DNA of 59,800 nucleotides from Vicinamibacteria bacterium (lineage in GTDB: Bacteria > Acidobacteriota > Vicinamibacteria > Fen-336): contig JAMPXO010000015.1 of NCBI GenBank assembly GCA_023701125.1, positions 1-59,800 on the forward strand, in the 5' to 3' direction. Within the stretch, counting starts at the first letter, position 1. Each line of letters opens with the position of its first letter. Positions 12,409 through 59,800 of this stretch are shown piece by piece. The translations under genes and the position numbers were made by a program. The notes under the pieces were generated by a model. The model was not told the origin of the DNA, made no database searches, and saw nothing but the letters and a program-made list of their open reading frames with translations.

Positions 12409-12502
12409 ACCGGCAACACCGGGGGCCGACGCCGGGTGCGTCCCGGCGCCGGTCCCCGTCCATCCCAAGGAGGAGGAGAGATCCCTTTCTATTCGACGCC
12501 GA

Positions 12503-12997
12503 TCACGCTGCGGCGGTCGCCGGAGCGCGATGGCGGTGCGGGGGCGGAGCCGCGTCCGTTCGCGGCGTGAGCCCCCGCGGGACCGGCGCCGGGTTCCCGG
12601 CGCCGGAACCCAATCTGGCAGCCGGCCGCGGCGACGGGGTGCCTTCGTTGGCGTGCTGCACGATGCGGACGGCGCCGAGCTTGCGGGCCTGGCCCACCGT
12701 CTCGCGGCGCAGCTTGCGATCGGCGCTCTTGGCGTGCGGACCGGGCAGGATCGCCAGCTCGTCGAGGCTGGCGACGATGCCGCCGACGCCGAGCTGGTAG
12801 CGCATGGCCAGCGAGGCCATGCCGACGATCCGCCCGTCGTCCGACTCCGCGATGCGGAGGATGAAGTTGCGATCGTGAAGCGTGCGACGGTAGGTCTCCG
12901 CGAAGCCGATCGGCTCGGGGTAGTAACCGACGCCCTCGAGCAACGAGAGCACCGCGATGCCGTCCTGCAGCGACGCCGGTCGAATGCGAACGCCCAT
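12503..12997 (-). pseudogene. Decayed GNAT acetyltransferase whose C-terminus is a palindromic repeat
   Basis: Open frame of 164 codons from the ATG at 12995-12997, with a GGAGG about ten bases upstream. Residues 1-125 follow a GNAT fold (MGVRIRPASLQDG, then IVASLDELAILP and ARKLGAVRI), but the acetyl-CoA loop, normally R/QxxGxG/A after the VLP strand, reads GPHAKSAD and is lost. The final strands of the fold are missing: from about residue 131 the frame runs through the palindromic repeat at 12535-12607, giving a Pro/Arg-rich tail (NPAPVPRGLTP). Both changes argue that it is no longer an acetyltransferase. It may still be translated. Confidence 0.6.
12535..12607 (+). repeat. Solo copy of a GC-rich palindromic repeat
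   Basis: This stretch matches the tandem units at 59544-59800 almost base for base, apart from a four-base shortening near its end. It folds as two hairpins: an outer stem GCGGGGGC / GCCCCCGC enclosing GCCGC / GCGGC, and a second hairpin of 11-bp perfect arms (CCGGCGCCGGG / CCCGGCGCCGG, 12583-12606) with a TT tip. It forms the 3' end of the decayed acetyltransferase frame. Confidence 0.85.
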
Positions 12998-56465: not shown

Positions 56466-56813
56466 ATGGCGACCACGAAGCTGCTGGAGCGGGAACTGAA
56501 GCGGGGCAGCGCCGAGCTGCTGATCCTGGCGCTGGTCGAGGAGCGGGCGCGGCACGGCTACGAGATCGCCCAGCTGATCGACAGCCGCTCCGACGGCGGC
56601 ATCCGCTATCACGTGGCGTCGCTGTACCCGACCCTGTACCGGCTCGAGGACCGCGGCCTGATCGAGGGCCGCTGGGTCGAGCAGGCGGGGGTGCGCCGCC
56701 GTCGCTACTACAAGTTGACGAAGGAGGGCCGCAAGGTGCTGAAGAGCCAGCGCAACGTGTGGGAGAGCTTCTTCGCCGCCCTCGACCGCGTGGCCCGGGT
56801 GCGCCATGCGTGA
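56466..56813 (+). CDS. PadR family transcriptional regulator
   Basis: 115 residues. LLILALVEERARHGYEIAQL and YHVASLYPTLYRLEDRGLIE form the winged helix-turn-helix; the end RRRYYKLTKEGRKVLKSQ is the wing and a C-terminal dimer helix follows. PadR-type repressors bind dyads like the one at its own start and release them upon binding a small molecule or a toxic compound. The gene overlaps the permease start by eight bases, so regulator and transporter share one message, the common arrangement for ADOP permeases. Confidence 0.95.
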   Translation: MATTKLLERELKRGSAELLILALVEERARHGYEIAQLIDSRSDGGIRYHVASLYPTLYRLEDRGLIEGRWVEQAGVRRRRYYKLTKEGRKVLKSQRNVWESFFAALDRVARVRHA

Positions 56814-59538
56814 CGCGAGTCCCGCCGTCGACTGGACCGTCCGCGTGCGCGAGGCGCTGGCCGCCGCCGGCGAGGCGCCCGACGATGGCGTCGTCGAAGA
56901 GCTGGCGCAGCACGCCGCGGCCCGTTGCGAGGCGTTGCGGGCCGAAGGCGCGTCCGCGGTGGAGGCCGCGGCGACGGTCGGCGCCGAGTTGCTCACGGCC
57001 TGGCGCGCGGAGGCGCGGAGCCTGCGCCATGCCCGTGGCCGTGCCGCGGCCGTGGCCGCCCCGCCGACGGGAGGCGCGTGGCTCGACGGCCTGTGGCAGG
57101 ACACGCGCTACGCCTTGCGCCTGCTGGCCCGTGCTCCCGGCCACACGGCGCTGACGCTGTCGACGCTGGCGCTCGGCATCGGCGTCGTCACCCTGCTCGC
57201 CAGCCTGGTGCACGGGGTACTGCTGCAGCCGTTGCCGTGGGCGGACTCCGAGCGCGTCGTGCGCTTCGCCGAGACCCGCCAGGGCGCGACCCGCAACTGG
57301 CCGTGGATGTTCACCAACGCCAGCTACCACCAGTGGCGCCTCCGGCACGAGACGCTGGAGCTGATGGCCGCGTACGACGGCGGCGGCGACACCCCGGTGA
57401 TGGAGCAGGGCGGCGAGGCCACGCGGGTCGAGACCATGGCCGTCACCGCCTCGCTGTTCGAGTTGCTGCGCGCGCGCCCGGCGCTGGGCCACGTCTTCGC
57501 CGCCGCGGACGAGGAGCCCGGGGGCGTGGTCGTGCTCTCCCACGCGCTGTGGTCGCGCGCCTTCGGCGCCGACCCGCGGGTCCTCGGGGCCAGCCTGAAG
57601 CTGGACGGCACGCCTCACCGCGTCGTCGGCGTGATGCCCGCGAGCTTCGCGTTCCCGGGGCCCGAGACGCAGGCGTGGACGCCGCTGCACGTGCCGCCGT
57701 CGACGGGCCCGGGCGAGGGCCAGGTCAACCTGGCGTTGTTCTCGGCGCTGGCCCGGCTGAAGCCCGGCGTGACCCCCGAGCAGGCCGCCGCGGAAGGCAC
57801 CGCGCGCGGGCGATCGGCCCCGAACGCGGGAATGGTGACGCAGGCGCTGTTCGGCGGCTCGGGCGTGGTCCACGTCAGCGCCACGCCCGTGCTGGAGTCG
57901 ATCACCGCCGAGGTTCGGCCCGCGTTGTTGCTGCTGCTCGGTGCCGGCGTGCTGCTGCTGGCGACGGCGACGGCCAACGTCGCCAGCCTGCAACTCGCCC
58001 GCGCCACCGCCCGCCGCCGCGAGCTCGCGGTCCGTGGCGCGCTCGGCGCCGGCACCGGCCGCATCGCCCGCCAGCTCGTCGTCGAGAGCCTGCTGCTCTC
58101 CTGCGCCGGCGGCGCGCTCGGCCTGCTGCTGGCCGCCGCCCTGCACCGCGCGCTGCCGAAGCTGCTGCCCGACGGCTTCCCGCGCGCGCTCGAGTTGTCG
58201 CTGGGCTTGCCCGCCGCGGCCTTCGCGTTTGCGGTCGCGCTGCTGGCCGGGCTCGGCTTCGCCCTGCTCCCGGCGCTGATGATGCGTCGGCTCGACGTCG
58301 CCCGTGCGCTGGCCGACGACTCCGCGGGCTCGGTCGGTGCCGGCCGCTCCGCCGTGGCCCGCGCCCGGGCCCTGATCCTGACCGGTCAGGTCGCGGTGGC
58401 CTCGCTGCTGCTGGTCGGCGCGATCCAGCTCGGGCGCAGCCTGACGACGCTGATGACGACCGAGCTCGGCTTCCAGCCCGCCAACGTGCTGGTGGCGACG
58501 CTGCCGATGCCCGCCCCGGCGTGGACCCCGCAGCGCCGCGCCCAGGTGCTCGACGCCGCGCTCGAGCGGCTGGCCACACTGCCCGGCGTCAGCCGCGCGT
58601 CGTTCTCGAGCATCGCACCGCTGTCCGCCAGCGAGGCGATGGCCTCGTTCGTGATGCCCCCTCGAACGCCCGGAGCGGAAGGCGTGCAGGCCAACGCCTC
58701 GATGCGCACGGTCAGCCGCGGCTACTTCGAGGCGCTGGGCCGCCCGATCGTCAGTGGCCGCGGCTTCGACGAGCGCGACGTCGTCGGCGCAGCGCCCGCG
58801 CTGGTCGTCAACCGCACGTTCGCGCAGCGTTACCTCGGGCCCGCGCCGCTGGGCCAGGTCGTGCCCGTCGGCGCCGATCAGCGCCACGACTGGGTGGTGG
58901 TCGGCGTGGTCGAGGACTCCCGGCAGCGCGGGCCGCTCGACCCGGTGCAACCCGAGGTGTTCGTGCCCCACTCCCAGCTCGGCGGCGGCGTGCGGCCGTC
59001 GGTGGTGTCGCTGCTGCTGCGCACCAGCGGCGACCCGGCGGCGCTGGCGCCCGCCGTCCGCGCGGCCTTGCGCGAGATCGACCCCGGCCTGGTCCCGGGC
59101 GAGGTCGCGACCCTGCGCGAGCGGCTGCTGCGTAACCTGTCCCGCCCGCGGCTGTATGCCCTGCTGGTCGGCGCCTTCGCCGCCGCGGCGCTGGGCATCG
59201 CCGGCATCGGCCTGTTCGGCGTGCTGTCGTACATGGTGGCCCTGCGCACCCGCGAGGTCGGCGTGCGCATGGCGCTCGGCGCGCGGCCCGGCCAGGTCGT
59301 CGCGCTGGTCGCCCGCGGTGGCCTGCGGCTGGCACTGGCGGGCGCGGCGGTCGGGGTGCTGGCCGCGCTCGCGGCCGGCTCGCTGCTGCAGGGCCTGCTC
59401 CACGGCGTCGCCCCGGTCGACGCGACCGTGGCCATGTTGGTGCCGCTGCTGGTCGCTGCGGTCGCGGTGCTGGCCTGCGCCGGACCCGCCTGGCGGGCGG
59501 CCCGTATCGACCCCCAGCAGGCCCTGCGCACGAGCTGA
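56806..59538 (+). CDS. ADOP family (duplicated orphan) permease
   Basis: 910 residues. A cytosolic N-terminal region (about 1-95, helical) precedes a MacB-like double unit: first membrane segment with LTLSTLALGIGVVTLLASLV, periplasmic domain (about 140-345), three segments including VRPALLLLLGAGVLLLATAT with ELAVRGALGAGTGRI, then a second copy with its own periplasmic domain (about 600-730) and closing MVALRTREVGVRMALGARPG. ADOP proteins are acidobacterial permeases not usually paired with an ATPase in the same operon. It probably exports a compound that PadR senses. The tandem palindromic repeats begin six bases after its stop. Confidence 0.94.
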   Translation: MRDASPAVDWTVRVREALAAAGEAPDDGVVEELAQHAAARCEALRAEGASAVEAAATVGAELLTAWRAEARSLRHARGRAAAVAAPPTGGAWLDGLWQDTRYALRLLARAPGHTALTLSTLALGIGVVTLLASLVHGVLLQPLPWADSERVVRFAETRQGATRNWPWMFTNASYHQWRLRHETLELMAAYDGGGDTPVMEQGGEATRVETMAVTASLFELLRARPALGHVFAAADEEPGGVVVLSHALWSRAFGADPRVLGASLKLDGTPHRVVGVMPASFAFPGPETQAWTPLHVPPSTGPGEGQVNLALFSALARLKPGVTPEQAAAEGTARGRSAPNAGMVTQALFGGSGVVHVSATPVLESITAEVRPALLLLLGAGVLLLATATANVASLQLARATARRRELAVRGALGAGTGRIARQLVVESLLLSCAGGALGLLLAAALHRALPKLLPDGFPRALELSLGLPAAAFAFAVALLAGLGFALLPALMMRRLDVARALADDSAGSVGAGRSAVARARALILTGQVAVASLLLVGAIQLGRSLTTLMTTELGFQPANVLVATLPMPAPAWTPQRRAQVLDAALERLATLPGVSRASFSSIAPLSASEAMASFVMPPRTPGAEGVQANASMRTVSRGYFEALGRPIVSGRGFDERDVVGAAPALVVNRTFAQRYLGPAPLGQVVPVGADQRHDWVVVGVVEDSRQRGPLDPVQPEVFVPHSQLGGGVRPSVVSLLLRTSGDPAALAPAVRAALREIDPGLVPGEVATLRERLLRNLSRPRLYALLVGAFAAAALGIAGIGLFGVLSYMVALRTREVGVRMALGARPGQVVALVARGGLRLALAGAAVGVLAALAAGSLLQGLLHGVAPVDATVAMLVPLLVAAVAVLACAGPAWRAARIDPQQALRTS

Positions 59539-59543
59539 GCGGA

Positions 59544-59800
59544 ACCCGACGCGGGGTGCGGGGGCGGAGCCGGGTCCGTTGCGGCGTGAGCCCCCGCGGG
59601 ACCGGGGCCGGGTTCATCCTGGCGCCGGCACCCGACGCGGGGTGCGGGGGCGGAGCCGCGTCCGTTTGCGACGTGAGCCCCCGCGGGACCGGCGCCGGGT
59701 TCATCCTGGCGCCGGCACCCGACGCGGGGTGCGGGGGCGGAGCCGCGTCCGTTTGCGGCGTGAGCCCCCGCGGGACCGGCGCCGGGGTCATCCCGGCGCC
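59544..59800 (+). repeat. Three tandem 86-87 bp palindromic repeat units
   Basis: Units start at 59544, 59630 and 59717, each opening ACCCGACGCGG; the third runs to or past the window edge. They differ by only a few substitutions and one base of length. Each carries the stem GCGGGGGC / GCCCCCGC and a second GGCGCC-based hairpin. The reading frame on the minus strand gives repeated VPRGLTP and AAPPPHP, but nothing suggests it is a gene. Confidence 0.9.

Follow-up and report, generated by a model that had tools for sequence, protein, structure and literature searches.

The stretch of DNA analysed here (the window) is one complete MAG contig of 59,800 bp, C123 of genome G000, and carries a palindromic repeat both as a tandem array behind a permease gene at its right end and as a solo copy within a GNAT-like gene. 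The features concerned are as follows.

12503 to 12997, minus strand: GNAT-like gene of 164 aa with an insertion (sister species: 137 aa), its C-terminal end and stop unchanged
12533 to 12611 (about), plus strand: solo copy, antisense to the GNAT gene and within its 3′ part
56806 to 59538, plus strand: ADOP/MacB-FtsX-type permease gene, with one base between its stop codon and the array
59540 to 59625, plus strand: repeat unit 1, beginning directly behind the ADOP permease stop codon
59626 to 59712, plus strand: repeat unit 2, the reference unit
59644 to 59684, plus strand: hairpin 1 of unit 2, with outer stem GCGGGGGC/GCCCCCGC, a GGA / GTGA internal loop and an inner hairpin
59685 to 59720, plus strand: hairpin 2 of unit 2, GGG-a-CCGGCGCCGGG ttcat CCTGGCGCCGG-ca-CCC
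59713 to 59800, plus strand: repeat unit 3, truncated where the contig ends, with the array going on at the start of contig C176

Tandem Repeats Finder delimits the array at 59540-59800 (period 87, 3.0 copies, 95% matches) with all units head-to-tail, in agreement with the initial annotation, which had described three near-identical tandem units at the right edge, a fourth copy near 12535-12607 on the plus strand and two hairpins per unit; the fourth copy was recovered at about 12533-12611, and both hairpins are present as described. In the intergenic gap 122 nt from the solo copy, at 12437-12460, lies a 15-nt perfect inverse of its hairpin 2 (CCCGGCGCCGGTCCC), possibly a decayed copy on the opposite strand. 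An ADOP permease adjoining the array is in keeping with the phylum Acidobacteriota, and the EttA protein of the window is closest to those of Acidobacteriota/Vicinamibacteria MAGs (76-83%). ADOP/FtsX-type permeases form a large paralogous family, with 34 genome matches to a query that includes the ADOP C-terminal part. Two contigs of public MAGs (L050 and L055), titled Bifidobacterium breve and Acidimicrobiia, encode an Acidobacteriota-like EttA (81% and 76%) and are possibly mislabelled bins.

The window array stops at the contig end, as arrays do on several other contigs, and local misassembly had been named at the outset as what would undo the observation. However, C176 opens inside the same kind of array and runs from it into the gene that both sister species have next after the ADOP gene, making C123 and C176 neighbours across the array by sister-species synteny (L298/L299). 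Since synteny anchors both of its sides, the window array is real, and since C176 begins within it, the true array has at least four units. With 130-151 copies in the genome, most of them distant from contig ends, an assembly artefact is refuted as the source of the repeats and has practically no probability left, the exact number of units beyond those four alone staying uncertain. Many other contigs also start or finish in arrays; the repeats thus break assembly.

Distribution and fold of the repeat family

The repeat recurs throughout the 5.4-Mb genome. BLAST returned 58 matches, and a degenerate 27-mer allowing 3 mismatches at most gave 130, of which 69 were forward and 61 reverse, where the pattern read backwards gave 0, so that the window repeats are not due to chance. 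A covariance model built from 33 copies raised the count to at least 151 copies in this genome, with at least 67 in G002 and at least 45 in G001, all three numbers being minima (150 candidates scored). Across the class, the family is present in 3 of the 119 genomes and 1 of the 76 genera sampled, all of the genomes being MAGs or drafts; the three are all three species of the genus, and the other 75 genera sampled yielded no copy. The further copies in the genome and its relatives that the initial annotation had proposed to look for were thus found in number, in this genome and in the sister species. Weak single matches in two other genera (G010 and G011; 42 and 21 bases, E about 1e-4 to 1e-3) were unconfirmed by the covariance model and were rejected. 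An exact 24-mer had no match in GTDB contigs, and the repeat had none in phage, plasmid and viral collections. At gathering scores the window had no Rfam match, at E up to 0.5 none overlapped an element in loci L156 or L226, and the open-access literature held no report of such repeats for Acidobacteriota.

Each element spans GGGGG(T/C)NN to GGAACCC, mostly over 80-85 nt with a tandem period of 85-87 nt, and contains two hairpins in fixed order. In hairpin 1, the outer stem varies as GC...GC, TT...AT or TC...GA beside GGGGGC/GCCCCC, while in the inner stem two C-G pairs alternate with tandem G.A/A.G (22 versus 120 copies at the first pair). The stem of hairpin 2 varies, its loop is TTCAY or shorter, and across the window units the hairpin reads CCGGCGCCGGG-ttcat-CC(C/T)GGCGCCGG. 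An assignment of the variant loops as UNCG tetraloops was ruled out, as the closing pair is wrong and the loops are triloops. One subfamily, found at L203, L215, L151, L137 and other loci and often in genes, departs from the rest in its 3′ half (GAGGGCCCGAGCG...GCGAGCCGCC): it has hairpin 1 in common and no GGAACCC end.

Both hairpins covary strongly. Among 149 distinct copies, double-sided change occurs at 21 of 28 pairs, with 225 double-sided changes observed against 65 expected from shuffles, which upholds the early impression that sequence differences tend to leave the outer stem intact. The covariation score of 0.180, from an alignment that was fitted to the same structure and hence leans towards it, compares with 0.084 in shuffles and was reached by 0 of 500 of them; slid controls scored far lower. 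Wobble in the stems is asymmetric, with 117 G.T against 20 A.C (78 against 8 in hairpin 2 alone), and the ratio still stands at 76 to 19 once the single richest pair is dropped, although the counts are not independent between related copies and p-values overstate their independence. Because G.T exceeds A.C, whereas a DNA cruciform would treat both alike, the fold appears to be needed on one strand.

Placement, in-frame copies and empty sites

Genes were called by a self-trained codon-model caller on 106 fetched regions and the window. The 160 copies placed fall into 148 clusters, with 46 between co-directional genes, 32 in convergent gaps, 10 in divergent gaps, 18 at contig edges and 42 inside ORFs. 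In-ORF clusters thus make up 42 of the 130 that can be placed, or about a third, a count that is if anything low: the window GNAT copy was scored as divergent after the retrained caller dropped the short gene, and the sister species show it to be in-gene. Among the 88 intergenic clusters, convergent gaps hold more than their share (32 clusters, in 14% of gap length) and divergent gaps less (10, in 31%), and the median distance of intergenic copies is 13 nt to stop codons versus 56.5 to starts. Copies are oriented at random with respect to genes (same/anti 23/23 between co-directional genes, 16/16 in convergent gaps and 18/24 in genes). Tandem clusters are always head-to-tail, and no cluster mixes strands.

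All 42 in-ORF clusters are read through in frame, and their copies encode recurring peptides in few frames, such as GFQRRDEPGAGPMGATSQTELLRPQTP (antisense) and GGLGAEELRSRRSPHGTGDGLRPAPEP (sense). The carriers include HisF, TrpD, MoeA, an acyl-CoA synthetase and a DUF2332 protein, as well as a Ser/Thr kinase, an amidohydrolase, an amino-acid permease, DnaX, RecQ and an ABC exporter. In the first five, the repeat forms clean insertions of 27-37 aa, which are absent from sister-species or same-family orthologues in 5 of 5 genes compared; solved homologues of HisF, TrpD and MoeA match both flanks without the inserted stretch. The solo copy of the window is likewise a net in-frame insertion of 81 nt, or 27 aa, into the GNAT gene, and is absent from both sister species. 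Element lengths are divisible by three in 26 of 33 in-gene copies against 27 of 85 intergenic ones (Fisher p = 4e-6), the 7 exceptions of the 33 being measured under fixed anchors, and this bias is what a purge of frame-breaking insertions would be expected to leave behind. In an AlphaFold model of the carrying HisF (mean pLDDT 71.6, from a shallow alignment of five sequences), insert residues 134-173 have pLDDT below 50 while the rest is a folded barrel; the insert is probably a disordered loop. The carrier genes look working and unbroken by the repeat. The hisF and trpD genes lie about 3.5 kb apart on contig C239 of G000 (L226, 2098-6703), each with its own insertion, of different subtypes and in opposite orientation.

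Seven of the seven sites compared are empty in relatives: those in the five aligned genes and both window sites, GNAT and downstream of ADOP, where the array is absent in both sister species. Since all seven are empty, the copies have either recently moved in or been lost elsewhere, and we favour insertion over loss because the in-frame boundaries are precise, movement being read from the empty sites and not observed directly. Copies of G001 and G002 at L240 4938 and L231 1494 have nearly identical 3′ flanks. Some insertions probably predate the split of these two species, which would mean vertical inheritance as well.

Probable mobility and relation to known elements

The repeats are in all likelihood a genus-specific family of short, non-autonomous mobile palindromic elements with two stem-loops, working like Rickettsia palindromic elements (RPEs). 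Copies would insert as single units, sometimes then being amplified in tandem at a period of 85-87 nt; most would persist by gene 3′ ends and about a third within ORFs, where the element together with a short flanking duplication would keep the frame and add a probably disordered peptide of about 27-30 aa. The two flanks share 4-nt identity in 26 cases against 8.6 expected from shuffles, a signal found after re-anchoring on the hairpin, an early fixed-offset scan having given little, and the acyl-CoA synthetase site fits an 81-nt element with a 3-nt duplication. The match weakens (p about 0.05) without copies that have a possible neighbouring-unit relic, and such relics may explain part of it. 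The fold would be required on one strand of a single-stranded mobility intermediate (ssDNA or RNA), on which an enzyme may act in trans. Against this reading counts that searches for a mobiliser (Y1, DDE_Tnp_1, reverse transcriptase and IS110-like genes, detailed below) brought up none linked to the repeats. Since the fold is strand-specific and gene orientation is random, selection probably acts on this intermediate rather than on the flanking mRNA.

RPEs are described as dispersed palindromes of about 150 bp, many of them in frame within unrelated protein genes, with conserved encoded peptides and no known dedicated transposase (Ogata 2000, 2002, via PMC10969869). The present family shares the dispersal, the recurrent peptides, the in-frame position inside ORFs of unrelated genes (42 clusters, with five aligned genes and the window GNAT) and the want of a known dedicated transposase. 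It differs in its host, GC-rich Acidobacteriota MAGs of one genus within the class sample, and in its length (81-85 nt), its two separate hairpins and its additional head-to-tail tandem arrays; its sequence is presumably unrelated.

A derivation from a DDE-transposase insertion sequence, which would make the element a MITE ending in short terminal repeats (GGGTT.../...AACCC) and flanked by a 3-bp target duplication, is the best placed of the alternatives and still improbable. Bacterial MITEs with coding ability, such as those in Coxiella, ERIC and BOX, are short, non-autonomous and can fuse in frame with genes (PMC10969869; PMC5896051), and the present elements do the same. Their ends, GGGGGTT and GGAACCC, are weakly inverted, and their flanks tend to match over 3-4 nt, with the reservation given above. 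However, the elements have short, imperfect terminal repeats and lack clear long inverted ones, and no parent insertion sequence was found, the one DDE family searched for, DDE_Tnp_1, being absent from the three genus genomes. Among other candidate mobilisers, IS110-like genes number 1, 1 and 2 per genome with no repeat within 1.5 kb, and reverse transcriptase, absent from two of the three genomes, occurs at a single locus in G001 that is not linked to the repeats; both were rejected. Of the IS110-like transposase genes (L313, L314 and L315), the G001 and G002 copies stand in the same gene setting.

Membership in a classical REP/BIME family that a RAYT (Y1 tyrosine) transposase disperses is already contradicted, and we give it little credence. 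REPs are units of 20-40 nt that bear an unpaired GTAG or CGTC tag at one end and often pair in opposite orientation; GTAG/CGTC REPs of Opitutus terrae, Thauera and R. conorii are mostly intergenic near 3′ ends, with a subset in ORFs that encodes 20-30 aa, and the CGTC families are without a dedicated transposase (PMC3733652). The present repeats are likewise palindromic and dispersed, prefer gene 3′ ends and convergent gaps (PMC3733652) and have an in-ORF subset, and they resemble the CGTC families in being without a dedicated transposase. In contrast, their units are longer (81-85 nt), with two hairpins in fixed order between GGGGGTT and GGAACCC and no GTAG or CGTC tag or GTAG-tagged 20-40 nt unit, and their tandem copies are invariably head-to-tail, with mixed-strand clusters absent. 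PF01797, the Y1/RAYT transposase domain, was found in 0 of the 3 genus genomes and in 5 of 14 control genomes, so the linked RayT-type enzyme suggested as a check did not turn up. The initial description of an uncharacterised REP/MITE-like family therefore stands in part: the family is uncharacterised, lineage-restricted and structured, but has no RAYT/Y1 and is not simply extragenic, with 42 of 130 clusters in ORFs.

A functional RNA or DNA element selected at gene ends, such as a terminator, an mRNA 3′-end stabiliser or a supercoiling site, would account for the strong compensatory change, the strand-asymmetric wobble and the preference for gene 3′ ends, but is rated slightly lower still, given the random orientation to genes, the lack of an Rfam match, the location of about a third of clusters within ORFs and the seven of seven compared sites that are empty in sister species.

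Returning to the mobile, RPE-like reading, a stronger form of it is that the hairpin has a length (81 nt plus a 3-nt duplication) and a sequence tuned for translation wherever it lands, and that some enzyme other than a Y1 or an IS4/IS5-type DDE transposase moves it via a folded single strand. We hold this form to be speculative and on balance doubtful; if true, it would make the hairpin a selfish, gene-tolerant element that relies on a new mobiliser and plants disordered peptides in core enzymes.

In-frame coding palindromes have so far been seen largely as a Rickettsia oddity, and the GC-rich Acidobacteriota genus described here provides another family. For annotation and repeat-masking pipelines that assume repeats to be extragenic, about a third of its copies would be misread. 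The family also offers a way to ask what moves RPE-like elements when a transposase is not in sight, and its scale, with 42 ORF clusters in one genome, together with the recency indicated by empty sister sites, makes it possible to test by what route core enzymes such as HisF and TrpD gain new peptide segments.
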